Made by a program: the position numbers and the translations under genes. From Cryomorphaceae bacterium (GTDB lineage Bacteria; Bacteroidota; Bacteroidia; Flavobacteriales_D; Parvicellaceae), in assembly GCA_905182525.1 (NCBI GenBank), contig CAJJBV010000002.1:124001-188000 (forward strand): a stretch of DNA of 64,000 bases. The letters run 5' to 3'. A model generated the notes under the pieces. That model did not search any database and was not told where the DNA came from. It saw only the letters and a list, made by a program, of their open reading frames with translations. Positions 6,933 through 54,582 of this stretch are shown one piece after another. Each line of letters begins with the position of its first letter. Position 1 is the stretch's first letter.

Positions 6933-8288
6933 ATGAGAGTTAGATTATACAATCTTATTACTAGAATTTTTGCACTATTACTTTTAGTTGTTTTTGTAAT
7001 AAATTTTTCCGCACAAGAAGGAGAAAAACTTTTCAAAGCTAACTGCGCTTCTTGTCACAACCCTGTTAAGAATGCAACCGGACCTAAAATGCAAGGGGTT
7101 CTACAGAAATGGATAGACGCGGGTGAAGAAGAATTAATTTATAAGTGGGTTCAAAACCCTTCTAAACTTTACAATAGCGGAAAATCTAAAATGGCAAAAG
7201 CTATTTGGGATTGGTCTCCTACTGCAATGACCCCCCAAGGACATTTGTCAAGAGAAGAAGTTGAGTCTATTTTTACATATGTAGACAATTATGCTCCACC
7301 TGTCGCTGCAGTTGGTGGTGGTCTTGCATCTGGAGATTCAATAACTACAGAATCTGATTCTTCAGAATATTGGTGGTGGATAATATCATTCATTTTAGTA
7401 TTTGTTTTATTTGCAATCCTTGGAGTCAGAAGAGAGTTGTCAGCGGCTGTTGCAGCTAAAGAAGGATTATTGGTTGATCCAACCAGTACTTTTGTAACTA
7501 GTGCCCAACAATGGTTTTTAAGAAATTGGTTTGTAACTGTATTGCTAGTTGTTGGAGTTGCTCTTTTTGCAGGCGTAGAACTATTTGGAAGAGCTTATCA
7601 GTTAGGAGTTTACGAAGATTATATGCCATCTCAGCCAGTAGCTTATTCACATAAACTTCATGCTGGAAAAATGGGTATAGAGTGTAAATATTGTCACCAT
7701 TCTGCGGAAAAATCAAAGCATGCTGGCATTCCATCCGTAAATGTGTGCATGAATTGCCATGCTATAGTTCATGAAGGCCCACAATACGGGACTGAAGAAA
7801 TTGATAAATTGCATAAAGCATCAGGCTACAATAAGAATAAACAAGCTTATAATATTGATGAATTCGGTGACAGAATTGAAGAGCCAATTGTTTGGAATAA
7901 GGCTCATAATTTACCAGATCATGTGTATTTTAGTCATGCTCAACATGTCCACACAAATACCGGTAATATCGATTGCAGGCAGTGTCATGGACCAGTTCAA
8001 ACTTACACATTAGGTAGGGTTTCAACTATTGATGAAGTAAATGCATACGCTGCTACTGACGATGGGATGGAAAGAGGTCTTATTCAATTAACTAAGCCAT
8101 TACTTACAATGGGCTGGTGTATTGAATGCCATAATAAAAAAGAAATTGATCTAACAAGTTCTGGATATTATAAAGAAATTCATAATAGAATTAAATTAAG
8201 AGCTGATATTAACAACAAAATTTTTGAGGATGATAAAGTTACAGTTAAAGAATTAGGTGGATGGGAATGCGCAAAATGTCATTATTAA
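6933..8288 (+). CDS. actA: Alternative Complex III subunit ActA, multiheme cytochrome c
   Basis: First gene of an Alternative Complex III operon, which oxidises quinol and passes electrons to cytochrome oxidase. The 451-residue protein has an N-terminal hydrophobic leader, then a small monoheme domain with CASCH at residues 38-42, two membrane helices (about 147-166 and 195-215), then a periplasmic region with five more CxxCH motifs: CKYCH, CMNCH, CRQCH, CIECH and a final CAKCH two residues before the end. That makes six heme c sites; the classical description of ActA is a pentaheme protein, so the N-terminal domain is an addition that may be usual in this phylum. The bis-His pattern is supported by several spare His residues. 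It is followed after 19 bp by actB. Confidence 0.93.
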   Translation: MRVRLYNLITRIFALLLLVVFVINFSAQEGEKLFKANCASCHNPVKNATGPKMQGVLQKWIDAGEEELIYKWVQNPSKLYNSGKSKMAKAIWDWSPTAMTPQGHLSREEVESIFTYVDNYAPPVAAVGGGLASGDSITTESDSSEYWWWIISFILVFVLFAILGVRRELSAAVAAKEGLLVDPTSTFVTSAQQWFLRNWFVTVLLVVGVALFAGVELFGRAYQLGVYEDYMPSQPVAYSHKLHAGKMGIECKYCHHSAEKSKHAGIPSVNVCMNCHAIVHEGPQYGTEEIDKLHKASGYNKNKQAYNIDEFGDRIEEPIVWNKAHNLPDHVYFSHAQHVHTNTGNIDCRQCHGPVQTYTLGRVSTIDEVNAYAATDDGMERGLIQLTKPLLTMGWCIECHNKKEIDLTSSGYYKEIHNRIKLRADINNKIFEDDKVTVKELGGWECAKCHY

Positions 8289-8307
8289 ATTTACTTATAA
8301 ATAATTT

Positions 8308-11300
8308 ATGAGCAAAACAAAAACATATTGGAAAGGTTATTCGGAAAAACATCAAACTCCTGAGTTTTCTAGTTCTAGTCAAAAAGAATTTCAAGATGAT
8401 GTCCCTGTAGATGAGTTTTTGAACTCAGATGGGTTAGATGATTTGAAAACTGGCAGAAGAGACTTTTTAAAATTCATGGGGTTTAGTGTTGCTGCTGCAA
8501 CTCTAGCATCTTGTGAATCTCCAGTTATTAAATCTATTCCTTATGTTAATAAACCAGAAGAGATTACACCTGGCGTTTCTAATTGGTATTCCTCTACTTA
8601 TTACGACGGTAATGATTTTGCTAATGTTTTAGTGAAATCTAGAGAAGGCAGGCCAATATGGCTTAAAGGCAAAAGAGACGGATATACTCAAGGAGGATTA
8701 ATACCAAGAATCTCAACATCCATATTAAACCTTTACAACAGTTCTAGATTAAATGGACCTTTAATTAATAAAAAATCAGAATCTTGGGATAATATTGATA
8801 AGGAAATTATAAATAAGTTAACCCAGTTAGGCGCTAAGAATGGTAAAGTTAGAATAGTGTCCAATACAGTTATCTCACCATCTACTAAATCTGTTATCAA
8901 AGAATTTATGGATAAGTTTTCTGTTTCTGATGACAACAAAAAGGGTTGTGAGATTAAGCATATAGAGTATGATGTCCAGTCTTATTCTGGAATTAGAAAG
9001 GCTAACAAAAACATTTTCGGCAAAAGTTTTATTCCTACTTATGATTTTTCAAAAGCCAAAACTATTGTCTCTATTAATGCAGATTTTATTTGTAATTGGT
9101 TATTACCCTCAAAATTTTCCACTGATTTTAGTAAAGCTAGAAAGCCTGAGAATGGATGGATGTCAAAGCATTTTCAGTTCGAATCAGTTCTCTCACTTAC
9201 TGGTGCTAACTCTGACGTTCGTGTTAAAATAAAACCATCTGAAGAGATTTTAGTTGCCTCTGCTATCTTAGGTTTTTTGAATAATGAAAACCCTAAATTC
9301 AGCCTTAATGAAAACACTACCGATAAAATTCAATCAGCTGTTAAATCTTTACTAGAAAATAAAGGTAATTCTCTTGTAGTTTCGGGGTCTAATGATCCAA
9401 ATATTCAAATGCTAGTTAATAAAATAAACTATCAGCTAGACAATTATGGTTCAACCATTGATCCTGATAACCAGGTAAACTTATTTAATGGAAATGATGA
9501 AATATTAGAAGCTTTTCAAACTGATTTATTAAATGGTGACATTGATGGTGTTATTTTCTACGGTGTTAATCCAGTATATTCTATGCCTAATGGAACTGAG
9601 TTTACAAAAGCAATAAGTGAATTAGACTTTTCACTTTCATTTTCTGAATATATGGACGAGACTGCCTCTTCCTGTGAGTATGTTTGTCCTGATCACAATT
9701 ACCTAGAGTCCTGGTGTGATTTAAATCCAGGTTCCAATCACTATTCTATACAACAACCTTTAATAAGACCTCTTTACAACACTAGACAAGCTCAAGAAAG
9801 CTTACTTGTTTGGACAGGAGAAGCTGCCAGATCAAACTCTGAAAGTCAAGCGTTTTACGATTACATGAGAAAACATTGGCTAGCCAATTCAATTGGAGAA
9901 CAAGAATCATATCCTAATTTTGCTGATTTCTGGAATTGGACTGTACACAACGGATTCACAAATAACAATAATGAATCTACAACCTCAACGTTAGTTTACA
10001 ATGATTATCCAATCAAAATTACCCCTCAAAAAAATGATTTAGATTGGGAGTATATAATCTATCAAAAAGAGCTTGGAGTTGGTCATCATGCTGCTAACCC
10101 TTGGCTCCAAGAACTGCCCGATGCTATATCTAAAATAGTTTGGGATAATTATCTAACAATGGCTCCTTCTGATTGTTATAAATTGTTTGGAATTGACACG
10201 TCAGATTCAAAATCTGCTTGGGATGGAATTCATTTGGGACAAGAAGAAAAAGCATTTGTGGCTTCTTTAAATGTTAATGGTATAGAAACAAAATTGCCTG
10301 TTTACCCTCTCCCTGGACAAACTAGTGGTACTGTTGGTATTTCTATGGGTTACGGTAGGGGTGAAAATAACGAAGACATTGGTAATGCAGCTTTTCAGGC
10401 TGATGAATATGGAAACCATTTAACAAATACCGAAGGAGGGTTGGTTCCGATTGGATCTAATGCTTTTAAGTTATGTAGTTTTAAAAACGGATCCTTGACT
10501 TACAGTGGATTTGGTGAAGTTATAGCAACGGATGAAAGATATTCACTTGCAGGTACTCAAACTCATCATACTATAATGGGTAGAACTTCTATTGTTAAGG
10601 AAACTACTTATGATTTTTGGAAAGATAATCATGAATCTAACCAAGAAGCTTATAATCCTAAAATCAAATTACACAGCCATGCTGAAGGTGGGCATTCTGA
10701 AGTTGACGCTACTGAGTATTCTTTGTGGGACGAACATCCTGTAGAACAAGTTGGCCACAGATGGGGAATGTCTATTGACTTATCTTCTTGTAATGGTTGC
10801 GGTGTTTGTATAACTGCTTGCCATTCGGAAAATAATGTTCCTGTGGTTGGTAAAGATGAGGTTAGAAGGTCAAGAGATATGCATTGGTTAAGAATGGATA
10901 GATATTTTTCTTCCATTGAGGATGACAATAGAAAAGAATGGGCAGATTCTAACAAAGTAGAAGGTGATTTCGACTACGGTAAGTTAGAAGTTCCTGAGGA
11001 AAATCCTTCAGTTGTATTTATGCCTATGCTATGCCAGCATTGTAATCACGCACCATGCGAAACTGTTTGTCCAGTAGCTGCTACAACCCATAGTAATGAA
11101 GGGCTCAATATGATGACCTATAATAGATGTATAGGAACAAGATATTGTGCAAATAACTGTCCTTATAAAGTAAGAAGGTTCAATTGGTTTAATTACAGAG
11201 ATTATAAAAAGTTTAAAAATTTCAATCCTAATCAAGATCAAATGGCTAGGATGGTTTTAAATCCGGATGTTGTTGTTAGGTCTAGGGGTGTTATGGAGAA

Positions 11301-11607
11301 ATGTAGTTTCTGTGTCCAGGGGATTCAAGCTGCAAAATTAGAAGCCAAAAAAGAGAGTAGAAAATTAGTAGATGGTGACGTTGTTCCAGCATGTGGTGAT
11401 GCTTGTCCCAACGATTGCATAACTTTTGGAGACTGGAACGATCCAGAATCTAAAATAAAAGAAGTTTCAGGTTCTGATAGAGCATATCAAGCTTTGGAAG
11501 AAGTTGGAGTTAAACCCAATATATGGTACCAGCTTAAAGTACGTAATATTGGTGAAGACTTAGCAGAAAATGTTTTGTCTGATGAATCACATTCTGAAAA
11601 CCATTAA
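8308..11607 (+). CDS. actB: Alternative Complex III subunit ActB, molybdopterin-type and iron-sulfur fusion
   Basis: A 1099-residue periplasm-facing subunit carrying the iron-sulfur chain of Alternative Complex III. A Tat-type signal follows about 48 residues of polar N-terminus: twin Arg in GRRDFLKF, hydrophobic run, then a lipobox-like TLASC, so it is probably exported folded and lipid-anchored. Residues of about 75-780 form the molybdopterin-oxidoreductase-like domain (no bound molybdenum is expected in this family). From about residue 820 a ferredoxin-like domain contains four Cys clusters: CNGCGVCITAC, CQHCNHAPCETVCP, CIGTRYCANNCP and CSFC with a later CGDACPNDC. The length is typical of the fused ActB. 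Neighbours actA and actC are 19 and 14 bp away. Confidence 0.95.
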   Translation: MSKTKTYWKGYSEKHQTPEFSSSSQKEFQDDVPVDEFLNSDGLDDLKTGRRDFLKFMGFSVAAATLASCESPVIKSIPYVNKPEEITPGVSNWYSSTYYDGNDFANVLVKSREGRPIWLKGKRDGYTQGGLIPRISTSILNLYNSSRLNGPLINKKSESWDNIDKEIINKLTQLGAKNGKVRIVSNTVISPSTKSVIKEFMDKFSVSDDNKKGCEIKHIEYDVQSYSGIRKANKNIFGKSFIPTYDFSKAKTIVSINADFICNWLLPSKFSTDFSKARKPENGWMSKHFQFESVLSLTGANSDVRVKIKPSEEILVASAILGFLNNENPKFSLNENTTDKIQSAVKSLLENKGNSLVVSGSNDPNIQMLVNKINYQLDNYGSTIDPDNQVNLFNGNDEILEAFQTDLLNGDIDGVIFYGVNPVYSMPNGTEFTKAISELDFSLSFSEYMDETASSCEYVCPDHNYLESWCDLNPGSNHYSIQQPLIRPLYNTRQAQESLLVWTGEAARSNSESQAFYDYMRKHWLANSIGEQESYPNFADFWNWTVHNGFTNNNNESTTSTLVYNDYPIKITPQKNDLDWEYIIYQKELGVGHHAANPWLQELPDAISKIVWDNYLTMAPSDCYKLFGIDTSDSKSAWDGIHLGQEEKAFVASLNVNGIETKLPVYPLPGQTSGTVGISMGYGRGENNEDIGNAAFQADEYGNHLTNTEGGLVPIGSNAFKLCSFKNGSLTYSGFGEVIATDERYSLAGTQTHHTIMGRTSIVKETTYDFWKDNHESNQEAYNPKIKLHSHAEGGHSEVDATEYSLWDEHPVEQVGHRWGMSIDLSSCNGCGVCITACHSENNVPVVGKDEVRRSRDMHWLRMDRYFSSIEDDNRKEWADSNKVEGDFDYGKLEVPEENPSVVFMPMLCQHCNHAPCETVCPVAATTHSNEGLNMMTYNRCIGTRYCANNCPYKVRRFNWFNYRDYKKFKNFNPNQDQMARMVLNPDVVVRSRGVMEKCSFCVQGIQAAKLEAKKESRKLVDGDVVPACGDACPNDCITFGDWNDPESKIKEVSGSDRAYQALEEVGVKPNIWYQLKVRNIGEDLAENVLSDESHSENH

Positions 11608-11621
11608 TATAAAAAACAGAA

Positions 11622-13031
11622 ATGCATAAAGAATCAGACATAAGGTTACCGTTAATTTTAGGAGACAAGTCCTATAAAGATATTACGGATGATGTTATTC
11701 GTCCAATTGAGGCTAGTCCCCCTAAAACATGGTATATTCTATTGATGATTTCAATTGTTATAGCATTATGGGGAATTGGTTGTATTATATACCTTTTAGG
11801 AACTGGAGTAGGTACTTGGGGATTAAATAAAACAGTTGGTTGGGCTTGGGATATTACAAATTTTGTTTGGTGGGTAGGAATTGGTCATGCTGGAACTTTA
11901 ATTTCTGCAGTACTTCTTTTGTTTAGACAGAAATGGAGATTTGCCATTAATAGAGCAGCTGAGGCTATGACAATTTTTGCTGTAATGATGGCCGGCCTTT
12001 TTCCTTTAATTCACATGGGAAGATTATGGCTTGGTTACTGGGTTTTCCCTCTCCCAAATCAATTTGGATCACTTTGGGTTAATTTTAATTCCCCGTTACT
12101 TTGGGATGTGTTTGCTATTTCCACTTATTTCTCCGTTTCACTTGTTTTTTGGTATATTGGATTAATTCCAGATTTTGCTACGATTAGAGATAGAGTTAGC
12201 AAACCAATTTTTAAGAGAGCTTATAGAGTTTTAAGTTTTGGTTGGACTGGTGACGCAAAAGCTTGGAATAGATTTGAGCAGGTATCTTTAGTTTTGGCAG
12301 GTCTTGCCACACCTTTAGTTTTTTCTGTCCACTCGATAGTTTCTTTTGACTTTGCCACTTCTGTAATTCCAGGATGGCATACTACAATATTTCCACCTTA
12401 TTTTGTTTCAGGAGCTGTATTTTCAGGATTTGCTATGGTTCAAACTTTAATGTTAGTTCTAAGAAAAGCTTACAAACTTGAAGCTTATTTACATGTAAAA
12501 CATGTGGAATATATGAATATTGTAATTATAGTAACAGGGTCAATAGTGGGTGTAGCATATATTACTGAACTATTTGTTTCTTGGTATTCTGGAGTTGAAT
12601 ATGAATCATATGCGTTTCTTAATAGAGCCACCGGTCCCTATTGGTGGTCTTATTGGGCAATGATGACTTGTAATGTAATATCCCCGCAGTTATTTTGGTT
12701 TAAAAGACTAAGAACCAGTTTAATGTTTTCTTTTTTCATGTCTATTATTATTAATATAGGCATGTGGTTCGAAAGATTTGTAATTATTGTTACTTCTCTT
12801 CATAGAGATTACGTTCCTTCCTCTTGGACTTATTTTCATCCAACTTGGGTAGATATAGGGGTTTACATGGGTACAATTGGAATATTCTTCACATTGTATT
12901 TATTGTTCTCTAGATATTTCCCTGTCCTTCCAATTGCAGAATTAAAAACAATTTTAAAGTCTTCCGGGAAGAATTATAAAGAAGGTTATGGAAAAGGTAA
13001 GGGATATTGGGATAAACACTCGGGACATTAA
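11622..13031 (+). CDS. actC: Alternative Complex III subunit ActC, NrfD/PsrC-type quinol-binding membrane protein
   Basis: A 469-residue integral membrane protein of the NrfD/PsrC family, the quinol-oxidising core subunit of Alternative Complex III. About ten hydrophobic segments are visible, starting near residue 32 (TWYILLMISIVIALWGIG) and ending near residue 430. Conserved features of the family include GHAGTLISAVLLLFRQ in an early helix and the aromatic, charged loop around FERFVIIVTSLHRDYVPSSW near residue 390, which lies near the quinol site in solved structures. The start ATG at 11622 lies 14 bp after actB. The assignment is secure from sequence and context. Confidence 0.95.
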   Translation: MHKESDIRLPLILGDKSYKDITDDVIRPIEASPPKTWYILLMISIVIALWGIGCIIYLLGTGVGTWGLNKTVGWAWDITNFVWWVGIGHAGTLISAVLLLFRQKWRFAINRAAEAMTIFAVMMAGLFPLIHMGRLWLGYWVFPLPNQFGSLWVNFNSPLLWDVFAISTYFSVSLVFWYIGLIPDFATIRDRVSKPIFKRAYRVLSFGWTGDAKAWNRFEQVSLVLAGLATPLVFSVHSIVSFDFATSVIPGWHTTIFPPYFVSGAVFSGFAMVQTLMLVLRKAYKLEAYLHVKHVEYMNIVIIVTGSIVGVAYITELFVSWYSGVEYESYAFLNRATGPYWWSYWAMMTCNVISPQLFWFKRLRTSLMFSFFMSIIINIGMWFERFVIIVTSLHRDYVPSSWTYFHPTWVDIGVYMGTIGIFFTLYLLFSRYFPVLPIAELKTILKSSGKNYKEGYGKGKGYWDKHSGH

Positions 13032-13040
13032 AAATTGGTT

Positions 13041-13577
13041 ATGGCAGAAAAAGTGATATTTGCGATGTATGATGACGATGATAAACTAATGGATGGTGCA
13101 AAACATCTTGTTGCCAATGATGTAAAAGTATCTGATGTTTATTCTCCTATGCCACTTCATGGTATTGATTCTATTATCGGGATTGAACCCACAAGATTAG
13201 CAATTACTGCTTTTATGTACGGTATTACTGGGGTTATCCTTGCAATGATTGGAATTAGATATATGATGATAATAGATTGGCCAATGAATATCGGAGGAAA
13301 ACCAAACTTTAGTTTAAAAGAAAATATGTTGTCATTTGTTCCTATATTTTTTGAGTTTACTGTATTATGTGCCGCTCACGGAATGGCAATAACTTATTTG
13401 ATTAGAAATAAAACTCTTCCAGGAATGCCTCCTAGAAATCCAGATCCTAGGACAACAGATGATAAATTTGTTATGGAAATTAAGACTTCTGAAAATACAC
13501 ATATTAAAGAAAGTGTTTTATCAAAGCTAATAAAAGACACTGGGTTTTTAGAAATTGAAGAAAAAAGTATTGTATGA
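13041..13577 (+). CDS. actD: Alternative Complex III subunit ActD (DUF3341)
   Basis: A 178-residue membrane protein of the DUF3341/ActD family. The first 45 residues form a small soluble domain (KVIFAMYDDDDKLMDGAKHL), followed by two membrane helices (about residues 55-75 and 97-118), matching the known ActD layout. It sits against ActC and ActF in the complex and has no cofactor. I place the start at ATG 13041; the frame also opens at TTG 13035, two codons earlier, but the ATG gives the standard N-terminus. The stop overlaps the actE start (ATGA at 13574-13577). Confidence 0.93.
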   Translation: MAEKVIFAMYDDDDKLMDGAKHLVANDVKVSDVYSPMPLHGIDSIIGIEPTRLAITAFMYGITGVILAMIGIRYMMIIDWPMNIGGKPNFSLKENMLSFVPIFFEFTVLCAAHGMAITYLIRNKTLPGMPPRNPDPRTTDDKFVMEIKTSENTHIKESVLSKLIKDTGFLEIEEKSIV

Positions 13578-14251
13578 AAAGGTATATTCTTTCATTTTAT
13601 CAGATTTGTTTTTTAATGTTATTATTAACATTATTAAATTCTTGTGTAAAACATCCTGACTCGCCGGGTTATGAATATGTAGACGATATGTTTAGATCAC
13701 AAGCAATAGAAGCATATATTGATTATGGACTAGTGGGAGACAAAGTCAATGACACATTAAAAAATACTATCTCTGCCAGAATACCAACTAAAGGTACTAT
13801 ACCATACAGTAAAAGTAAACAAACATCTACAACAAACATGCCTTTTTACTATGGTTCTAGTGAGGAAGAGAGGATAAGAGCCGGTGAAGAAGTTTCATTG
13901 CCAAAGCATTATTATTTAAAAGAAAGTAACCAGGAAGCTAATACTGCTGAAGGTAAAAGATTATACGGATTATTTTGTGCTCATTGTCACGGTGACAAAG
14001 GAAATGGTGACGGATTAGTTATTACAGTCGGAGGATATCCTGCAGCCCCACCTGCTTACAATACACTTAAAGATAGAAAACCTGGTTCTGTTTTTCATAC
14101 TATTACTTATGGTAAAAATGCAATGGGCCCACATGCTTCACAACTTAATAAAGATGAAAGATGGAAACTGGCTATGTATGTTAGAACAATGCAATTTGAC
14201 GGTGACTTAAACTTGGAAGAGTTGGTTTCTGACAATACAAAAGACAATTAA
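13574..14251 (+). CDS. actE: Alternative Complex III subunit ActE, monoheme cytochrome c lipoprotein
   Basis: A 225-residue monoheme cytochrome c. It has a lipoprotein signal (LLTLLNSC, Cys about residue 24) and one heme motif, CAHCH, near residue 137, followed by the typical GDKGNGDG loop; a Met about 50 residues later (KNAMGPHASQL) is the likely second heme ligand. In Alternative Complex III this subunit is the probable electron exit towards cytochrome oxidase. The start codon overlaps the actD stop by 4 bp, indicating translational coupling. Confidence 0.94.
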   Translation: MKRYILSFYQICFLMLLLTLLNSCVKHPDSPGYEYVDDMFRSQAIEAYIDYGLVGDKVNDTLKNTISARIPTKGTIPYSKSKQTSTTNMPFYYGSSEEERIRAGEEVSLPKHYYLKESNQEANTAEGKRLYGLFCAHCHGDKGNGDGLVITVGGYPAAPPAYNTLKDRKPGSVFHTITYGKNAMGPHASQLNKDERWKLAMYVRTMQFDGDLNLEELVSDNTKDN

Positions 14252-14274
14252 GTTTAGTCGATAAATTAAATAAA

Positions 14275-15822
14275 ATGGAGTATAAAATTTCTGAAAGAGC
14301 AAAGAAAGTCACACTTGGAACAGCAGTTCTTGGTTTGATTTTTTTGATCATTGGATTCTTTCAACAAAAAGATTTTGTTTATGCTAAAAAAGTTGATAAT
14401 CATTCTGTTGAATTATTGTACAATGGCCACGCAAACCTTGAAGCTCAAAACCAACTTAAAGAAACTATAATTTCTAAAATGCATGGATATAATCTAGAAT
14501 TTCATGATTCAATGCACTCTGATAATCATCATAAAGAACCTTCTAATCATCATGAAGAATCTAATTCTCACCCAGAAGAAAATGAACATCATGGCCCAAC
14601 CTTTAAATGGCTTATTCATTTAGGGCATGCTAATCAAGAAAATGAATCTGCAATTTTAGAAAATCATGAAAGTGGAGCTGATCATCTTGTTGAAATGGCG
14701 AAAAGTGGAGAGATTAGTTTTTTTGATCATCACTTTAGACGCTTTTGGTCTAACTTATTAGTGAATGGTTTTTTCTTTTTTGGAATTGCTTTAGGAGCTT
14801 TATTCTACCTTGCTTTACATTATGCAACAGAATCTGGATGGGGAGTAGTTCTCCTTAGAATTTTTGAAGGTATTATGTCTGCTATGCCAATTGGTATTAT
14901 TGCATTGCTAATTGTTTTCATTGTTGGAACTTTTGGTGGTCATCATATTTATGCGTGGATGGACTCTCATCTTGTAGACCCTAATTCAAGTCACTTTGAT
15001 CCAATTATTTATGGGAAAAAGGCATACTTAAATATTCCATTTTTCTGGATTAGAATAGTTGCTTATTTCACAACTTTCATATTATTTTTGAGATGGTTTA
15101 AAAATAAATCTAAAGAAGAAGATGAACAAGGTGGCACAAAAATTCATTTCACAATGTATAGACGAGCAGCTTTATTCTTAGTTTTCTTTGCGGTTTTTTC
15201 TTCTACGATGTCCTGGGATTTTATTATGTCGATTGATGCTCATTGGTTTAGTACTCTTTTTGGTTGGTACTGTTTCTCAGGAATTTGGTTAAGCGGAATG
15301 ATTATGGTGATGATGATTACTCTTTATCTCAGAAAAGGCGGCTACTTACCCTTTGTCAACGAAAGTCATATTCACGATGTAGGTAAATTTATGTTTGCCC
15401 TAAGTTTTTTATGGAGTTATTTATGGTTTTCTCAATTTATGCTAATTTGGTATTCGAATATTCCCGAAGAGGTGATTTATTTTACCGAAAGAATAAATAA
15501 TTACAATATTTTATTTTTTGGAACCTTCATCGTTAATTTTTTCTTTCCAATGGTATTTTTCATGTCAAGAGATACTAAAAGATCTGCCGGTTTTCTAATT
15601 GTTATTGGAATGTTAATATTCATAGGTCATTGGTTTGATGTTTTTAACATGGTTATGCCTGGAACACTTTTTGACCAGTGGGAACTTGGACTTTTAGAAC
15701 TTGGGATGTTTATGTTATTTCTTGGTTTATTTGTTTACTCAGTACTTAACTCGTTATCAAAGTCTCCCTTATTATTAAAGAATCATCCTTTTCTAGAAGA
15801 AAGTAAACACCATGAATATTAA
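14275..15822 (+). CDS. actF: Alternative Complex III subunit ActF with His-rich loop
   Basis: A 515-residue membrane subunit, paralogous in fold to ActC, that completes the membrane core of Alternative Complex III. There is a first helix at residues 12-30, then about 125 polar residues, then roughly nine more helices. The polar stretch is remarkable: between about residues 75 and 145 there are more than fifteen His in clusters such as HDSMHSDNHHKEP, SNHHEESNSHPEENEHH and LIHLGHANQ. Such a region could bind copper or zinc, though His/Glu-rich linkers also arise from low-complexity drift. It starts 23 bp after actE and ends 10 bp before coxB, so it is part of one transcript with the oxidase. 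Confidence 0.92.
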   Translation: MEYKISERAKKVTLGTAVLGLIFLIIGFFQQKDFVYAKKVDNHSVELLYNGHANLEAQNQLKETIISKMHGYNLEFHDSMHSDNHHKEPSNHHEESNSHPEENEHHGPTFKWLIHLGHANQENESAILENHESGADHLVEMAKSGEISFFDHHFRRFWSNLLVNGFFFFGIALGALFYLALHYATESGWGVVLLRIFEGIMSAMPIGIIALLIVFIVGTFGGHHIYAWMDSHLVDPNSSHFDPIIYGKKAYLNIPFFWIRIVAYFTTFILFLRWFKNKSKEEDEQGGTKIHFTMYRRAALFLVFFAVFSSTMSWDFIMSIDAHWFSTLFGWYCFSGIWLSGMIMVMMITLYLRKGGYLPFVNESHIHDVGKFMFALSFLWSYLWFSQFMLIWYSNIPEEVIYFTERINNYNILFFGTFIVNFFFPMVFFMSRDTKRSAGFLIVIGMLIFIGHWFDVFNMVMPGTLFDQWELGLLELGMFMLFLGLFVYSVLNSLSKSPLLLKNHPFLEESKHHEY

Positions 15823-15832
15823 TTAGAGAATT

Positions 15833-17134
15833 ATGGAAATTAAGTTTATTATAATTATTACTGTAGCGCTTTTCTTTATTGCATTAGTGCAACTTATGAA
15901 AATATATGACCTTGCTGCTAAAGTAAGAGGTGAAAAATCACAAGAAAAAGTATCTAGAAGTGAAAATATGCTAATGGCTAATCTTATGTTGGTTTTTATG
16001 GCAGCATTTTTTGGATTTATAATTTGGTTGATTGCAAAGTATGGATCTAATTCAGGACTTTATCAAGCTGCTAGTGCGCATGGAAAAGATATTGATGAAC
16101 TGTTGATGATCAACTGGTATATAATTCTCCCAGTATTTTTTATTACTAACTCTTTATTATTTGGTTTCTCTTGGAAATACTATTACAGAGAAGAAAGGAA
16201 AGCTCTTTATTACCCTCATAATAACAAGCTTGAAGCAGTATGGACTATTGTACCTGCAATCGCTCTTGCATTTATTGTTATATATGGACTTATGACATGG
16301 AATAAAATCATGTATAATCAAGAAAAAGGAGAAATTGTTGAAGTTTATGCTTATCAATTTGGATGGATTGTACGATATTCCGGAATAGATAATACTTTGG
16401 GTAAAGCAGATTATAAAATGGTTTCTTCAACTAATCCACTCGGAGTAATTACTCAAAAAACAATTAAAGAAACTTACATAGAAATAGATCAAAGAGTAAA
16501 TGATATTGACTCTATTCTTTCTAGTAATATTAATGTTGAGGGAAAATATTTAATTCCAGAAGCTAAATTATTTAAGCTTCGTGAGGAATATGATAAATTA
16601 AAAAGAAGAAAATATAGAATTGAAGCATCAATTGATAGAAAAGTTAATAATTTGTCAGTTTATGAATCTAGTAATGATGATATCATTGTTCAAGAGATAC
16701 ACCTAGTAAAAGACCAACCTTATACTTTTAAATTTAGATCTAAAGATGTAATCCATTGCCCATGGTTTCCTCATTTTCGTGCACAAATTAATGCAGTGCC
16801 AGGTATGGAAACTAGCTTTGCTCTAACCCCAACTATAACAACTAAAGAGATGAGGGCCAACCCGGATGTTCAAAAGCATTGGGAAAATATAAATGTAATT
16901 CATAATGAAAGAAAACGTAGAATTGGAGAAGAAGAAGAAAGGGTTTTGTTTGACTATGTTCTAATGTGTAATAAAATATGTGGTGCAGGTCACTCAAACA
17001 TGCAGCTGAAAGTAATTGTAGAAACTCAAAATGAGTTTAATCAATGGATAGAAAATAATGGAGACAATAAGCGTTTAACTTTTTCTGGCCAAGAGGTCAA
17101 TTGGAGTAAGACAAAAGCTCAAGCGTCTCTTTGA
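15833..17134 (+). CDS. coxB: Cytochrome c oxidase subunit II with CuA site and extra insert
   Basis: Subunit II accepts electrons at the dinuclear CuA centre and passes them to subunit I. The 433-residue protein has a signal-like N-terminal helix, then two further membrane helices near residues 48-70 and 95-118, and a periplasmic cupredoxin domain. The CuA ligands are visible: HCPWFPHF (about residue 307) and CNKICGAGHSNM (about residues 378-389). Between the first cupredoxin strand (YQFGWIVRYSG) and the DDIIVQEIHL strand lies an 80-90 residue charged, helix-forming segment (about 200-280) with many Lys, Glu and Ile that looks like a coiled coil. This makes the protein longer than typical homologues. 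No heme c motif is present. Confidence 0.93.
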   Translation: MEIKFIIIITVALFFIALVQLMKIYDLAAKVRGEKSQEKVSRSENMLMANLMLVFMAAFFGFIIWLIAKYGSNSGLYQAASAHGKDIDELLMINWYIILPVFFITNSLLFGFSWKYYYREERKALYYPHNNKLEAVWTIVPAIALAFIVIYGLMTWNKIMYNQEKGEIVEVYAYQFGWIVRYSGIDNTLGKADYKMVSSTNPLGVITQKTIKETYIEIDQRVNDIDSILSSNINVEGKYLIPEAKLFKLREEYDKLKRRKYRIEASIDRKVNNLSVYESSNDDIIVQEIHLVKDQPYTFKFRSKDVIHCPWFPHFRAQINAVPGMETSFALTPTITTKEMRANPDVQKHWENINVIHNERKRRIGEEEERVLFDYVLMCNKICGAGHSNMQLKVIVETQNEFNQWIENNGDNKRLTFSGQEVNWSKTKAQASL

Positions 17135-17162
17135 TTTGTAAATTTGTTAAAAATATATCGAT

Positions 17163-18927
17163 ATGTCACATGATACGCATCATCACCAGAAAGAAAGTTT
17201 TATAACTAAATACATATTTTCTCAGGATCATAAAATGATAGCTAGACAGTACCTGCTAACTGCTATATTTATGGGAGCTATAGGTATTGCCTTGTCTGCC
17301 TTGTTTAGATTAAAGTTAGGATGGCCTGATGACAAGTTTCCAATATTAGAATCTATTTTAGGATCAGATGCAGCACCAGATGGCCTTTTAGATAGTAATT
17401 GGTATCTTGGGTTAGTAACACTTCACGGAACTATCATGGTGTTTTTTGTACTAACTGGTGGTTTGTCAGGAACTTTTTCCAATTTATTAATTCCACTTCA
17501 AATTGGTGCTCGAGATATGGCATCTGGCCTGATGAATATGATTAGTTACTGGCTTTTCTTTTTATCTAGTGTTTTAATGGCAGCTTCTCTTTTTATTGAA
17601 ACTGGACCAGCAATGGCTGGATGGACTGTTTATCCTCCTCTCAGTGTTCTTGCTGAATTTCAACCCGGATCTGGACTTGGAATGACTCTTTGGCTACTTT
17701 CTATGACAGTTTTTATAGCTTCTTCACTTCTTGGAGGAATTAATTACATAGTTACTATTTTAAATCTTAGAACTAAAGGAATGACTATGACTAGACTTCC
17801 ATTAACAATATGGGCATTCTTCATAACTGCAATTTTAGGAGTACTATCTTTTCCAGTATTACTTTCTGCAGCTGTTTTACTACTTATGGACAGAGGTTTT
17901 GGAACGAGTTTTTACATGAGTGATATTGTCACATCTTCAGGAGCTCTTGATGCTACTGGCGGTAGTCCAATTTTATATGAACATTTATTTTGGTTTCTTG
18001 GTCACCCAGAAGTGTATATAATTTTACTTCCAGCTCTAGGAATGACATCTGAAATTATTTCAACTTGCTCTAGAAAACCAATTTTTGGTTATAGAGCTAT
18101 GATAGGATCTATGTTGGCAATTGGGTTTCTATCTTTTATTGTTTGGGGACACCACATGTTTTTAACGGGAATGAATCCATTCCTTGGAGGAGTTTTTACA
18201 TTTACTACTTTATTAATTGCAATTCCTTCAGCTGTAAAAGCATTTAACTTTATAACTACAATTTGGAAAGGTAACGTGATGATGACACCCGCTATGTTGT
18301 TTTGTATAGGAGCAGTTTCAGCATTTATTTCCGGAGGAGTTACTGGAATAATACTAGCAGACTCCGCTTTAGATATTTCCCAACACGACACTTATTTTGT
18401 AGTAGGGCATTTTCATATTGTAATGGGGATGACTGCTATTTTAGGGATGTTTGCAGGTATTTATCATTATTTCCCAAAACTCTATGGCAAAGTGATGAAT
18501 ATGAGAATGGGTATGGCACATTTTTGGATTACAATAGTTTGTGGATATGGCGTTTTTCTACCAATGCACTTTTTAGGTGAAGGTGGCTTGCCAAGAAGAT
18601 ATTATGAGAATACTAATTTCCCAATGTTTGATCATTTTTTAGATTTAAATGTTTTAATCTCAATTTTTGCTTCTGTTGGTGTTTTAGCTCAAATCATTTT
18701 CTTTTTTAATTTTTTCTACAGTATTTTTAGGGGTCCTAAAGCCTCACAAAATCCTTGGAATGCTAACTCATCTAGAATGGACAACTCCAGTAGAGCATGT
18801 TCATGGTAACTGGATAGGTGAAATCCCTACTGTTTACAGGTGGCCTTATGATTATAGTAAACCCGGTAAAGAAAAAGATTTTGTTCCTCAAAACGTACCT
18901 CTTGATAAAGACGAAGAAGAACATTAA
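17163..18927 (+). CDS. coxA: Cytochrome c oxidase subunit I (frameshifted near its C-terminus)
   Basis: Subunit I carries heme a and the heme a3-CuB centre where oxygen is reduced. The main frame has twelve-helix organisation and the key residues: the early His in LHGTIMVF, the HPEVY motif with the cross-linked His and Tyr (about residue 280), WGHHMF (CuB His pair), and VVGHFHIV (heme His ligands). The frame read from 17163 ends at 18809 with a foreign tail after NPWNAN. One extra base between 18768 and 18771 explains this: the next frame continues LEWTTPVEHVHGNW and runs to a TAA at 18925-18927, which is the normal C-terminus and restores about 587 residues. The gene is 28 bp after coxB and last in the respiratory operon. 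Confidence 0.93.
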
Positions 18928-48080: not shown

Positions 48081-49594
48081 ATGTTGTTTAAAAGATTTAT
48101 AATTTATATTCTTGGATTTCTAATGATTAATTCATTAAATGCTCAGGTTAAAAACAGGAGCTTCTCAGCAAATTATCATTTAATATATAAAAATATTGCC
48201 CATAGTTCAGTTCAGCCTTATTTAGAATCTCATCAGCTTGAATTAGACACTCTTAGAACTAAATCAAAAAATAAAATCAACAAAAAGTTATTTGATGAAA
48301 GTTTATTAAACGTTAAGAAAAAAGATATTCATATAACTGCAGATCCACTATTTAATTTCACAATTGGCTCTAAAAATAAAGATTTAGACTATAGATATTA
48401 TTCAAATGTAAGAGGAGTTAGAATAACAGGTGATTTAACTAATAATTTTTCATTTGAAACAAGATTTTACGAAAATCAATTTTTTTATCCAGATTATTTA
48501 AGGCAAAAATCAGATTCTAGAACCAATACTTCAAATATTGAAGGAATGGCATTTGGAATAGGAAGAGCTAAGAGATTCAAGACTTACGGAGCTGACGCAA
48601 GCTTAGCTAACGGATATTTAAGCTTCTCTCCAAATAAGGTCATAAATTTTCAGCTTGGTCATGGAAGACATTTTTTTGGCGATGGATATAGATCACTATT
48701 AATCTCCGATTATGCTCCAGACTACCCATATATAAGTGGCCAATATTATCTTTTTAATAAAAAAATTCTTTATAAACATGTTACTTCATGGATGAAGAAT
48801 TTAGAAAGAATACCTGCTTCCTCTACGCCTGAAGCATTATTCATTCCAAAATCCTCAAGTTTTAATATATTGTCTTTTAGCCCCAACAGTAGATTTTCAA
48901 TTTCTATGTTTGAAGGCGGAGTATATAAATCTTTTGATAATCAAATGGAAAAATTAATCCTGACGTAAGTTTCTTTTTGCCAATAATTGGGGCAAAAGCG
49001 TTAGATATCGACAGTACTAATAATATTATTTATGGATTTAATTGGTCTTTATTATTGTTTGAGAACTTAAAGATTTATAATCAAATAGCTTTAAACCCCA
49101 ACTCTTCCTCAAGAGGAATTCAGGTGGGAATAAAATGGCTTAATCCACTAAACTCCTCAAATTCATTTTTAAATATTGAATGGAATACATCTTCTTCAAC
49201 CATGTTCTCTATGAACCAAGGCCAGCTTAATCAAACCTATTCTCATTTAGGACATGAGTTGGCACATCCTTTGGGTTCTGGTTTCCAAGAAATCCTATTA
49301 AGAGGTCAATTTTCTTATAAAATGTCATTCATTAGGTTTAACTACAACTATGCTAAGATTCAAGATATTTATAATGGAAATGAAATTTTTGAACCCTTAG
49401 AAAATATACTCTCAAATACTAAAACATATAAGACCAGATTATTTTTAAATACAAATATTGGTATTATGCTAAATAAGGAAACCAACATGGAAATATCTAT
49501 TGGTCATATGACTAGAAAAAATAATAATTTATTGGAGAACTATATTTTTCTTTCTTGGAGAACAAACTTAAAAAACGATTACTTTGACCAATAA
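48081..49594 (+). CDS. RemB/Wzi-like outer-membrane protein, copy 1 (frameshifted)
   Basis: A predicted outer-membrane barrel with signal peptide (FIIYILGFLMINSLNAQ). It contains LGHGRHFFGDGYRSLLISDYAP near residue 200 and HELAHPLGSGFQE near the end, both shared with the next gene. The frame from 48081 stops at 48968; a second frame continues GKINPDVSFFLPIIG to 49594. Adding one base near 48945 joins them into 504 residues, exactly the length of the downstream paralogue. The family resembles gliding protein RemB and capsule-associated Wzi barrels; which of these is right cannot be decided here. Confidence 0.65.
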
Positions 49595-51203: not shown

Positions 51204-52076
51204 TTGGAAACAGTTTCTAAATTATCATTTTCTTTAAAGTTTAAAGGCTTTATAGCCCTTTTAAAACTTAGGCTATCTAGTCTGGTGGTAATGTCTGCTT
51301 TTTTTGGTTTTCTATTAGCTGATGGAAATCTTTCTTCTTTCACTTTTTTAAAGCTAATTTTTGGTGGTATTTTAATAACTGGATCATCAAATGGATTTAA
51401 TCAAATAATTGAAGCCAAAACCGACGAATTAATGTCAAGAACTTCTTCTAGACCACTTCCTTCAAAAATATTAAATAAATGGGAAGCTTTACTATTTTGT
51501 ATTAGCACAGGAGTTTTGGGTTTATATTTATTGATAAACATTAATTTTAGTTCTTTTTTTCTTGGTCTTCTAGCTATGGTTATATATACTTTAATTTATA
51601 CACCACTAAAGAAAGTCACGCCATTTGCAGTTTTCATTGGTGCAATACCAGGAAGTATACCACCTTTATTAGGTTATATTGCAGTAACAAACGATTTTGG
51701 ACTCGAATCAGGTATTTTATTCATTGTTCAATTCTTTTGGCAATTCCCACATTTCTGGGCTCTTGCTTGGAAATTAGACGAAGATTATAAAAAAGCTGGA
51801 TTTAGATTACTACCAAGTAGTGAAAGAAATCAGAAAAGCGCTTTTCAAATAATGCTATACTCAGCATTTTTAATCCCAGTTTCAATGTTGCCATGGGCTG
51901 CAGAAATGACCGGTACTTGGTCCATGTTTGCGGCAGTTTTAATAAGCCTTGTGATGTATTATCCTTCAATTAAGCTTTACTTTACTCTTGATAGTAAGTA
52001 TGCAACGCAATTAATGTTTATGTCCTTTTTATACTTACCCATATTATTTTCCATGTATTGTTTTAACCAGATATAA
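51204..52076 (+). CDS. ctaB: Protoheme IX farnesyltransferase (heme O synthase)
   Basis: CtaB/CyoE attaches a farnesyl group to heme B, making heme O, the substrate of CtaA. The 290-residue membrane protein has about eight helices and the prenyltransferase motifs: KLRLSSLVVMSAFFGFL at the start, NGFNQIIEAKTDELMSRTSSRPLPS (Asp-rich site, about residues 66-90), YTPLKKVTPFAVFIGAIPGSIPPLLGY and FWQFPHFWALAWKLDEDYKKAGFRLLP. The start is TTG 51204; no ATG precedes the first helix. It heads the second oxidase block, 10 bp before subunit III-like genes. Confidence 0.95.
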   Translation: METVSKLSFSLKFKGFIALLKLRLSSLVVMSAFFGFLLADGNLSSFTFLKLIFGGILITGSSNGFNQIIEAKTDELMSRTSSRPLPSKILNKWEALLFCISTGVLGLYLLININFSSFFLGLLAMVIYTLIYTPLKKVTPFAVFIGAIPGSIPPLLGYIAVTNDFGLESGILFIVQFFWQFPHFWALAWKLDEDYKKAGFRLLPSSERNQKSAFQIMLYSAFLIPVSMLPWAAEMTGTWSMFAAVLISLVMYYPSIKLYFTLDSKYATQLMFMSFLYLPILFSMYCFNQI

Positions 52077-52086
52077 TTTTTATTAA

Positions 52087-53328
52087 ATGCAACAATTTAA
52101 TTCCAATAAACAAAAAGAAAAAGTTTACATAGCTATTGTTGTGGTAGGACTTGTAGCAAGTTTAATGTTATTTGCGGGCCTTTCTAGTGCAGTTTTAGTT
52201 AGGAAAATGGATAAGTTTTGGGTGAATATTAATCTTCCCGAAGCATTTAAAATAAGTACAATATTAATTATCATAAGTAGTGTTTTTATGTACTTAGCAT
52301 TAAAAAAGGCAAGAAAAGCAGATAAAAGAAGTACAGTTTATTCGTTAATTTTAGCACTTATTTTTTCAATAGCTTTTGGGGCATTTCAATTTAAAGGTTG
52401 GAAGGAATATTACAATCAAGGAAATGCAGTAAAATCTTTTATAACATTTGTATATGGCCAATATGGTCAGTCTTATAAAGTGTATAATGGGAATCATCCG
52501 ATTGAGTACAACGGGGAGGATTATGTCTGTCAAGGCAAGGTTCTTGATGAAACCTCAATTAATAATTTAAAATCCTTTCTTAGGCAGATTTGTGGTTATG
52601 GATCTAGATTTGAGGGTTCAAACTTAAAACTTTTAAATTATGGTGACCCATACACATTGTACGATGTAAATAATAAAAAACGATTAGAAATTAATTCAAT
52701 AGGACTATCCTTAAATGGAGAAAAAATTTCTGAAGGCCATAAAGATGAATTATTCAAGTTCTCATATGGAGTTTGTAATGACCAGCCTTTTTTTATGCTG
52801 AAAGGGAAGTATGGAAAAGATTTTTCAATTGCTTTAAACGGGGAAGATTTAATCTATGATAAAAAGAAATTATATTTTCCAGCAAAAGAATTATCAGACA
52901 ATGAAAGACAAGCAATAAATCAGAAAGTTTACCAAGCTGGGAATGAATACTCGATTAAAAATAGTAAGGTATACCTAAATGAAGATGAGGTATCTGATTT
53001 CAATGGTTTTTTTCAATTAAAACCTGGAGTTAATATTCATATTGAAAATGATTTTTGGGAAAGAACAAAAGAAGAGTTAAATCCAAATCAATATGCCGAA
53101 TTTTATTCCACTTCTAATGTTTCGAGTAGTTTCGTTTGGGTTCTAACATTTCTTCACTTTTTACACCTAATAATGTCAATCACTGGGATTTCAGTTGTAA
53201 CAGTACGAGCTAATCGTGGACATTACAATCAAGATAACACATCTGGATTAAAAGCAATTAGTGTTTTTTGGCATTTTGTTGGCCTTTTATGGCTTTACTT
53301 ATATGTTTTTTTAGAATATATTAATTAA
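52087..53328 (+). CDS. Cytochrome oxidase subunit III-like protein with large inserted domain
   Basis: A 413-residue membrane protein. Residues 13-100 hold three hydrophobic helices (IAIVVVGLVASLMLFAGLSS, FKISTILIIISSVFMYLAL, YSLILALIFSIAFGAFQF), and residues 345-413 hold two more (FVWVLTFLHFLHLIMSITG, VFWHFVGLLWLYLYVFLEYI), together the five-helix core of heme-copper oxidase subunit III. Between them lies a soluble segment of about 220 residues with Cys at YVCQGK, RQICGYGS and YGVCNDQ and a repeated beta-like pattern (LSLNGEKIS, IALNGEDLI). No heme motif is present. This insert is not part of the standard family. Context (ctaB before, another subunit III after) supports the assignment. Confidence 0.85.
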   Translation: MQQFNSNKQKEKVYIAIVVVGLVASLMLFAGLSSAVLVRKMDKFWVNINLPEAFKISTILIIISSVFMYLALKKARKADKRSTVYSLILALIFSIAFGAFQFKGWKEYYNQGNAVKSFITFVYGQYGQSYKVYNGNHPIEYNGEDYVCQGKVLDETSINNLKSFLRQICGYGSRFEGSNLKLLNYGDPYTLYDVNNKKRLEINSIGLSLNGEKISEGHKDELFKFSYGVCNDQPFFMLKGKYGKDFSIALNGEDLIYDKKKLYFPAKELSDNERQAINQKVYQAGNEYSIKNSKVYLNEDEVSDFNGFFQLKPGVNIHIENDFWERTKEELNPNQYAEFYSTSNVSSSFVWVLTFLHFLHLIMSITGISVVTVRANRGHYNQDNTSGLKAISVFWHFVGLLWLYLYVFLEYIN

Positions 53329-53351: not shown

Positions 53352-54164
53352 ATGGCTGGAGATTCAGATAATATAAGTAGAACAGAACTTTGGGGAGGAA
53401 ACGGATCACCATTTAGAATATCTTATGGTAAACAATGGATGTGGATGTTTTTGGTCTCTGATGCTCTTACGTTTGGAGGTCTTTTAACCGCTTATGGATT
53501 TGCAAGACATCAAGCACCATCGTGGCCAATAGGCGAAGAAACTTTTAATGCAATGCCATTTTTGGGTAATGGTTATCCACTATTGTATGTTGCACTTATG
53601 ACTTTTATATTAATTGTTAGTTCTGTAACTATGGTTTTAGCTGTTGAGGCTGGCCACAGATTGGATAAAAAAGGAGTAATAAAGTGGCTTTTATTTACCG
53701 TTATTGGAGGATTATTCTTTGTTGGTTCCCAAGGTTGGGAATGGTATCACTTTATTCATGGAACTCACTTCGGTTCTATCTTAACTTCTGAGGGTTGGGC
53801 TGTAGTAGACTATAATTCGGCAAATGAATTAATTCTAAGAATGGGTAGGGGATTAACTATAACTGGAGAAAAAGCTGCTATTTTATTTGATAGCGCTACC
53901 GCAACAATGCAAGGGGCAAATTTAATTGAAAATGAATATGCTCCATTAGTTCCTCAATATGCCAATTTTTTCTTTTTTATAACTGGATTTCATGGTTTCC
54001 ATGTTTTTTCTGGTGTAGTGTTTAACTTTATAATTCTAATTAATGTTGTTAGAGGAGTATATGAGAAAAGAGGGCATTATGAAATGGTTGAAAAAGTTGG
54101 ACTTTATTGGCATTTTATTGATTTAGTATGGGTGTTTGTTTTCACATTCTTCTATTTACTTTAA
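53352..54164 (+). CDS. Cytochrome c oxidase subunit III
   Basis: A 270-residue membrane subunit of the heme-copper oxidase. Helices of the family are clear: WMWMFLVSDALTFGGLLTAYG, YVALMTFILIVSSVTMVLAV, KWLLFTVIGGLFFVGSQGWEWYH, NFFFFITGFHGFHVFSGVVFNF and YWHFIDLVWVFVFTFFYLL. The GFHGFHV and WHFIDLVW signatures are diagnostic. A polar loop of about 50 residues between helices is longer than in proteobacterial proteins. It is 23 bp after the 413-residue paralogue, so this oxidase has two subunit III-like proteins. Confidence 0.93.
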   Translation: MAGDSDNISRTELWGGNGSPFRISYGKQWMWMFLVSDALTFGGLLTAYGFARHQAPSWPIGEETFNAMPFLGNGYPLLYVALMTFILIVSSVTMVLAVEAGHRLDKKGVIKWLLFTVIGGLFFVGSQGWEWYHFIHGTHFGSILTSEGWAVVDYNSANELILRMGRGLTITGEKAAILFDSATATMQGANLIENEYAPLVPQYANFFFFITGFHGFHVFSGVVFNFIILINVVRGVYEKRGHYEMVEKVGLYWHFIDLVWVFVFTFFYLL

Positions 54165-54177
54165 ATTTTTTAAAAAA

Positions 54178-54582
54178 ATGGAAAGAGACGATTTAGTTCA
54201 AGATCACAGTTATTCTGTTTCTGCAAATCATGATGAAGCTCATGGTGTTGAAATAAGAAAAAAAATATGGAAAGTAACAGGTATTTTAACCTTGATAACC
54301 GTAATCGAAGTTTTAATAGGGGCATTTATTAAACAGTATGATTCTTCAGGTGCTGACAATTTACTTTGGCCTTATGTGAAAATTGGATTTCTAGTTTTAA
54401 CAGTAGTTAAAGCAGCTTACATAGTATTAGTTTTTATGCATTTAGGTGACGAAAGAAAAAGTTTTAAGTGGGTAATATTAGCACCTTATATTTTATTTAT
54501 TCTGTACCTAATATTTATTTGCTTAACTGAATCAAGTTATTGGTTTGAGGTCTTTCAAGGTGAAAATAGTATAAATCCATAG
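54178..54582 (+). CDS. Cytochrome oxidase subunit IV
   Basis: A 134-residue small membrane subunit of the prokaryotic cytochrome oxidase subunit IV type. Three helices are visible: IWKVTGILTLITVIEVLIGAFI, YVKIGFLVLTVVKAAYIVLVFMHLGDE and WVILAPYILFILYLIFICL; the VFMHLGDER motif is typical. I start at ATG 54178 (MERDDLVQDH) because the upstream portion of the frame overlaps the end of subunit III and has no family match. Confidence 0.88.
   Translation: MERDDLVQDHSYSVSANHDEAHGVEIRKKIWKVTGILTLITVIEVLIGAFIKQYDSSGADNLLWPYVKIGFLVLTVVKAAYIVLVFMHLGDERKSFKWVILAPYILFILYLIFICLTESSYWFEVFQGENSINP

Follow-up and report, generated by a model that had tools for sequence, protein, structure and literature searches.

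A modular periplasmic insert of undescribed kind in a cytochrome oxidase subunit III-like protein of Bacteroidota and its possible role at the interface with alternative complex III

The window, the whole 64,000-nucleotide stretch of DNA analysed here, carries the genes for an alternative complex III (ACIII) together with those for the oxidase subunits CoxB and CoxA, and at another site an oxidase-related gene set in the order ctaB, COX3a, COX3b, subunit IV, SCO and DUF420. The features are as follows:

6933..15822, forward strand: alternative complex III genes in the order ActA to ActF, from open reading frames
15833..18809, forward strand: CoxB (with a CuA motif and without a heme motif) and CoxA, from motifs and a COX1 search
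51204..52076, forward strand: ctaB, heme o synthase (TIGR01473, 251.3 bits vs. a cut-off of 210.3)
52087..53328, forward strand: COX3a, subunit III-like protein of 413 aa with five transmembrane helices (Pfam COX3, AlphaFold model)
52423..53115, forward strand: periplasmic insert of COX3a between helices 3 and 4, residues 113-343 (alignment and models)
53352..54164, forward strand: COX3b, second and more conserved subunit III (Pfam COX3, E 1.2e-14)
54178..54582, forward strand: COX4-like subunit IV (PF03626, E 1.6e-13; start codon set by inspection, searched from 54181)

Within the ACIII genes, ActC was recognized by NrfD (PF03916) and ActD by PF11821, ActA contains six CxxCH motifs and ActE one, and ActB and ActF were assigned only from inspection and the order of the genes. 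No COX1 match other than CoxA turned up in the genome assembly. CoxB (15833-17134) appears by eye to contain an extra charged, helix-like stretch at about residues 200-265, ahead of its CuA part.

COX3a is the first of the two adjoining subunit III genes and is encoded by the 413-residue open reading frame at 52087-53328. Its Pfam COX3 match lies above the gathering score (35.4 bits vs. 23.8, E 1.4e-8) and covers only residues 337-411, corresponding to the last two helices, in which His and Trp-His residues are invariant; 21 of 21 relatives also match COX3 at E values up to 1. The AlphaFold model, which was built on 57 related proteins, reached a mean pLDDT of 89.1 and a pTM of 0.76 and contains long helices at residues 7-42, 52-76, 80-110, 345-376 and 386-412, which form a five-helix bundle as expected for COX3 family members with their five or seven helices. 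Searching the PDB with the full model by Foldseek, we obtained oxidase subunits III or fusions with subunit III as the best 41 rows, with a best E value of 4.9e-3 and none at 0.001, and E. coli 6wti_C matched with a TM-score of 0.75 by target length. The gene setting, with ctaB, COX3b, COX4 and SCO adjoining, is likewise that of an oxidase. A COX3a match was present in all 60 genomes searched, the own genome included, the match in three of them (G039, G048 and G050) consisting of the last helices only and possibly representing COX3b. COX3a therefore shares the five-helix core of the COX3/CyoC family (PF00510), but differs from it in that its periplasmic loop joining helices 3 and 4 is longer by about 230 residues and that a second, more conserved subunit III copy adjoins it. 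At one locus (L154), COX3a lies within a 611-aa open frame, which may represent a fusion or merely an upstream open frame.

In the seven-helix topology of subunit III, the loop between helices 3 and 4 (in five-helix numbering) is periplasmic, and the five-helix form corresponds to the last five helices of the seven-helix protein. It follows from this topology that the insert is periplasmic. In the AlphaFold model it forms a beta-rich part of about 230 residues (approximately residues 112-343), and when modelled alone it reached a pLDDT of 88.2 with nearly the same secondary-structure elements as in the full model. In the family of the window, 34 of 37 genomes (the window included) align across the whole insert, the remaining three representing a frame cut at a contig end (G018), a broken frame (G032) and a shorter insert (G014). 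The dN/dS ratio within the genus is about 0.10 for the insert vs. 0.09 for the membrane core, as calculated from the 34 of 55 genus pairs that were usable; these ratios are rough because of the high synonymous divergence. The insert is under purifying selection, with a median identity within the genus of 72% vs. 81% for the core, and the long forms show conserved glycines and aromatic residues as well as conserved Trp324 and Glu330. The net charge of the insert is -5 in the window protein, with a median of -8 over 33 distinct long forms. The insert is real and neither a chance product nor degraded. The original prediction of a soluble domain inserted into a subunit III-like protein was thus supported, and the search that it suggested in other Bacteroidota found the insert in the close relatives.

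The insert consists of successive modules with a recurring pattern of three strands and a helix, which is present in both models (full protein and insert alone):

52441..52599, forward strand: module 1, residues 119-171, strands followed by helix 155-169 (hhalign to modules 2 and 3 and the single module: 95%, E 2-3e-8)
52621..52782, forward strand: module 2, residues 179-232, strands followed by helix 216-230 (hhalign: module 1 95%, module 3 70%, single module 63%)
52795..52914, forward strand: module 3, residues 237-276, in the alignment the counterpart of the single module of short relatives (hhalign 98.5%, E 1.5e-15)
52912..52998, forward strand: putative module 4, residues 276-304, strands only (weak sequence support; strand pattern of the models)
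52993..53109, forward strand: putative module 5, residues 303-341, strands followed by helix 333-341 leading into helix 4 (mainly strand pattern of the models)

Modules 1-3 matched one another by hhalign with probabilities of 70-95%, and none of 100 column shuffles was as good. With the single module (S) of short relatives included, the probabilities ranged from 63 to 98.5% and the E values from 7e-5 to 1.5e-15, again with 0 of 100 shuffles as good. The value for module 3 vs. S is not independent because these columns were already aligned in the family alignment, so the independent comparisons are M1-S (E 1.9e-8), M1-M2 (3.2e-8) and M1-M3 (1.9e-8). The profiles were made after removal of near-copies, with 24-31 rows per module and 10 for the single module, and 24 control comparisons with four non-insert segments yielded probabilities of at most 3.2%. 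Judged from these profiles, modules 1-3 and the single module of the short relatives are all demonstrably homologous in sequence, and the LNGE-type turns noted in the original prediction turned out to be part of these genuine repeats. Module 4 reached 45% with module 2, a value matched by one of 100 shuffles, and 29% with the single module, matched by none of 100, and module 5 reached 10% or less; both are likely further duplicates, as suggested mainly by the AlphaFold model. In the window protein itself, an HMM of the single module recognized only two copies, modules 1 and 3, and missed module 2 (E 9.8). We found no module-sized repeat in the DNA of the COX3a insert, where the longest repeat has 22 nt, and the module duplications are therefore old.

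The steps leading to this architecture are represented among the relatives. The loops of 177 COX3a proteins (of 187 loci, 10 with fragmentary, broken or truncated frames were dropped) fall into classes of 15-18 aa (18 proteins), 64-77 aa (40), 119-121 aa (2), about 150-190 aa (54) and about 240-250 aa (63), the family of the window having the longest form. These locus counts are not independent, since the two locus collections overlap in genomes; the long forms comprise 33 distinct ones. The 18 shortest loops were verified among 20 fetched short forms, which were chosen for short frames and hence carry no frequency information; the other two (L182 and L185; 162 and 171 aa) were set aside. The single module of the 64-77 aa step shows the pattern YGxDF or YGxDY, a turn with G, a strand, and GxFY or GxYY. 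At an E value of 0.01, the single-module HMM detected two copies or more in 115 of the 119 loops exceeding 80 aa, with the loop entry contributing part of the score of the first copy, and no copy at all in 238 reversed or shuffled loops. The presumed two-module step (L048 and L050) gave one clear match to this HMM, in L050. Isolates with three modules are Fluviicola chungangensis (L101, loop of 174 aa) and Lishizhenia tianjinensis (L116, 177 aa). In a wider sample of the class, a subunit III profile that may also match COX3b found matches in 184 of 197 Bacteroidia genomes, and in at least 113 of the 197 the best match breaks off at the loop, with frames of mostly 190-235 aa.

We calculated a tree by a quick method, with long branches flagged, from the membrane-core columns and COX3b of 106 representatives with less than 80% core identity in which COX3b was also present. 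The five length classes require seven changes on this tree vs. 56 with shuffled labels. A tree constrained to keep all module-bearing rows in one clade was not rejected (p-AU 0.548, the constrained tree being slightly better), and the rows with three or more modules stand on one side of a branch with a support of 75, apart from the three-module form L168, which is placed in another part of the tree next to rows with one or two modules. The simplest interpretation is thus that a module was gained once and then duplicated, although the tree fixes the order of events only loosely and losses may also have occurred. Taken together, we are highly confident of the anatomy and history of the insert.

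The neighbouring paralog underwent a parallel development. Of the first 58 loci retrieved, 57 have COX3b next to COX3a, and COX3b is the better conserved of the two (90% identity vs. 75% for COX3a). It carries a loop at the same site, which ranges from 36 to 239 residues over 175 loci, longer versions being found at L037, L043 and L044, and is located in the window as follows:

53730..53972, forward strand: 81-aa loop of COX3b joining helices 3 and 4, which contains another type of module (loop lengths and profile comparison)

Genomes of the three-module class have a COX3b insert of about 150 residues made up of two tandem copies, which match each other with 95% probability (E 3.7e-8, 0 of 40 shuffles as good; profiles from 38 distinct sequences); the second copy matches the single COX3b module with 86% and the first with 38%. 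Kinship between COX3b and COX3a modules was not detected, with at most 5.6% probability in 18 pairs, of which two (M1-BS at 2.9% and M2-B1 at 1.1%) did beat all 40 shuffles. The two paralogs therefore lengthened the same loop with different modules. This parallel, the growth by module duplication and the presence of ACIII in the same window had all been missed by the original prediction.

Heme-copper oxidase core subunits are normally very conservative. In COX3a, several stages are preserved by which a 45-residue module grew into a domain of 230 residues, and in COX3b a different module took a similar course. The carriers are mostly uncultured Bacteroidota; isolates exist for the three-module class.

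No known domain was recognized in the insert. A search of the window COX3a with Pfam and NCBIfam gave no Pfam family above the cut-off in the insert, and Pfam searches of 21 relatives as well as searches against PDB sequences and viral structures yielded nothing usable for it. By sequence search, the PDB contained no solved structure of a module-bearing subunit III. The structure prediction and fold search proposed for the insert gave a model without a convincing match to a well-described domain: Foldseek against the PDB had a best E value of 0.22 and none at 0.001, and VIA-align a best Z-score of 3.5 (rmsd 4.1 over 50 residues), with rows lying mainly within model residues 157-220, so the other parts of the insert were barely probed there. 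The nisin immunity protein NisI showed a weak sequence match over one stretch (E 0.015); it was absent from the structure matches seen and was treated as a chance match. Among the titles and beginnings of abstracts listed from the open-access literature, we found no description of the insert. With respect to the sources searched, it is an undescribed modular periplasmic domain on a known subunit, in agreement with the original assessment that its kind was unfamiliar.

For the function of the insert we propose the following explanation as a hypothesis, next to the strong structural and evolutionary claim. COX3a would be a divergent second subunit III of the aa3 oxidase, and the insert its periplasmic arm. 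One small beta module would have been acquired by the loop that connects helices 3 and 4 and then duplicated in tandem, as the profile comparisons establish for modules 1-3 and as is likely for modules 4 and 5. The arm would stand on the periplasmic face of the oxidase, most likely as a protein-protein interface, and may contact the periplasmic part of ACIII, namely ActA with its mobile heme domain, ActB or ActE. Such a contact might either hold a supercomplex together or place the electron-donating heme domain near CuA. We infer the order of the duplication events, the contact with ACIII, and that COX3a rather than COX3b faces ACIII. We give about even chances to this explanation as a whole, i.e. 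an arm of COX3a grown by tandem module duplication and docking to ACIII; the docking role at the oxidase-ACIII interface we put forward only tentatively.

A docking arm is favoured because the ACIII and CoxBA genes share the window with COX3a, because ActD and subunit III co-occur, and because contacts via subunit III are reported for Flavobacterium johnsoniae. ActD and subunit III are both present in 179 of 197 Bacteroidia genomes, both missing in 10 and present singly in 8 (5 + 3); the association is only indicative because the genomes are related, and the profile may match COX3b, so that the subunit III counted is not strictly COX3a. Subunit III of F. johnsoniae is reported to mediate the interactions between ACIII and the oxidase (PMC8361435), and ACIII is the sole electron source of the aa3 oxidase (PMC8552683). 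The F. johnsoniae ACIII-cytochrome aa3 supercomplex resembles the present case in the kind of partner, a six-heme ActA, a monoheme ActE and a CoxB without heme. In the mycobacterial III2-IV2 supercomplex, CtaE and CtaF, which are parts of subunit III, are reported to participate in contacts to complex III as well (PMC8361435). That complex III is of another type, and the likeness is one of function only. To our knowledge, the mycobacterial supercomplex has no such insert.

Other observations count against docking. The number of modules showed no link to the presence of ActD or to the N-terminal region of ActA: 15 of the 18 verified zero-module genomes have ActD, indicating that module number does not track ACIII, and no link between the N-terminal region of ActA and module class was seen by eye among the matches listed, which all start at residue 29 or before (the first heme motif of the window protein is at 38). 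The length of CoxB in the relatives showed no obvious link to module number either, as judged by eye and without a statistic. Furthermore, the insert evolves faster than the core, and COX3a likewise outpaces COX3b, as would suit a peripheral part under loose constraint. Also unfavourable to the explanation as a whole are the position of L168 in the tree apart from the remaining long forms, the recognition of only modules 1 and 3 by the single-module HMM in the window protein, and the low net charge (-5) of its insert. If the arms do contact ACIII, they would provide a natural series on what holds an electron-transfer supercomplex together. The further-reaching proposal that Bacteroidota supercomplexes are tuned by modular arms, with both subunits III having independently gained different modules at the same loop and duplicated them in tandem into lineage-specific arms that dock to ACIII and steer its mobile heme domain towards the oxidase, appears rather unlikely to us.

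As an alternative to docking, the modules may form a shield or lid that covers the periplasmic face of the oxidase and protects the enzyme or its paths for lipids or oxygen, without a special partner in ACIII. The same anatomical evidence agrees with such a cover, as does the thickening of the same face by COX3b with its own module over the whole range of loop lengths (36-239 aa in 175 loci), but many related genomes manage without it, namely the at least 113 of 197 class genomes with a match ending at the loop, including 18 cases verified by sequence. We assign a shielding function a limited chance of being correct. A comparably small chance goes to neutral growth, by which a loop on a free surface tolerated duplications and gained no function beyond folding. 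The faster evolution mentioned above would be expected from it, as would the growth of the two paralogs by modules without recognizable relationship and the missing link between module number and partner genes; the dN/dS ratio of the insert near 0.10, the conservation of glycines, aromatic residues, Trp324 and Glu330, and the long form in 34 of 37 family genomes argue against it.

We regard it as very unlikely that the insert is a redox or metal domain that binds heme, copper or a soluble cytochrome c, and the heme or copper binding considered in the original prediction is accordingly disfavoured. The periplasmic site adjoining the oxidase and the acidic tendency of the long inserts (median net charge of -8 in 33 forms) would agree with such a domain. 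As had been noted before, however, the insert contains three Cys residues (148, 169 and 230) and no heme motif, and CxxCH is absent from all 177 COX3a loops, so that it lacks the signature of a cytochrome c. Among the 33 long forms, only Cys169 is well kept (29/33), followed by Cys230 (13/33) and Cys148 (1/33), and 19 of the 33 contain a single Cys. His residues number between 0 and 6 per long form, and no His or Met is found among the positions kept in 95% of them, leaving no conserved set of CuA or cupredoxin ligands. The missing Pfam and convincing structural matches point in the same direction. Docking of a soluble cytochrome without cofactor binding by the insert itself is possible. Cys169 (52591-52593 of the window) and Cys230 (52774-52776) occupy corresponding positions at the helix ends in modules 1 and 2 and occur in 29 and 13 of the 33 forms, respectively, so a cross-module disulfide between them is possible in some long forms.

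The insertion of a ready-made foreign domain by recombination, as its large size and the lack of a counterpart in CyoC-type subunit III might suggest, is highly improbable in view of the stepwise intermediates and the homology to the single module of the short relatives, and since the long-insert profile had no matches outside COX3a: it found nothing else in the own genome at E values up to 10, and its hits among 198 genomes of the phylum were confined to the window's own and G043, there again in COX3a (355-aa frame), this profile being one of the long form that misses single modules and the 198 genomes containing few close relatives.

Two further observations were made by eye elsewhere in the window. 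At 48081-49594, two adjoining frames of 295 and 205 aa seem to belong to a single protein of the outer-membrane type that is interrupted by a stop codon or frameshift, and at 57833-60545, methionine synthase-like coding extends over overlapping frames of 186 and 738 aa, suggesting a possible frameshift.
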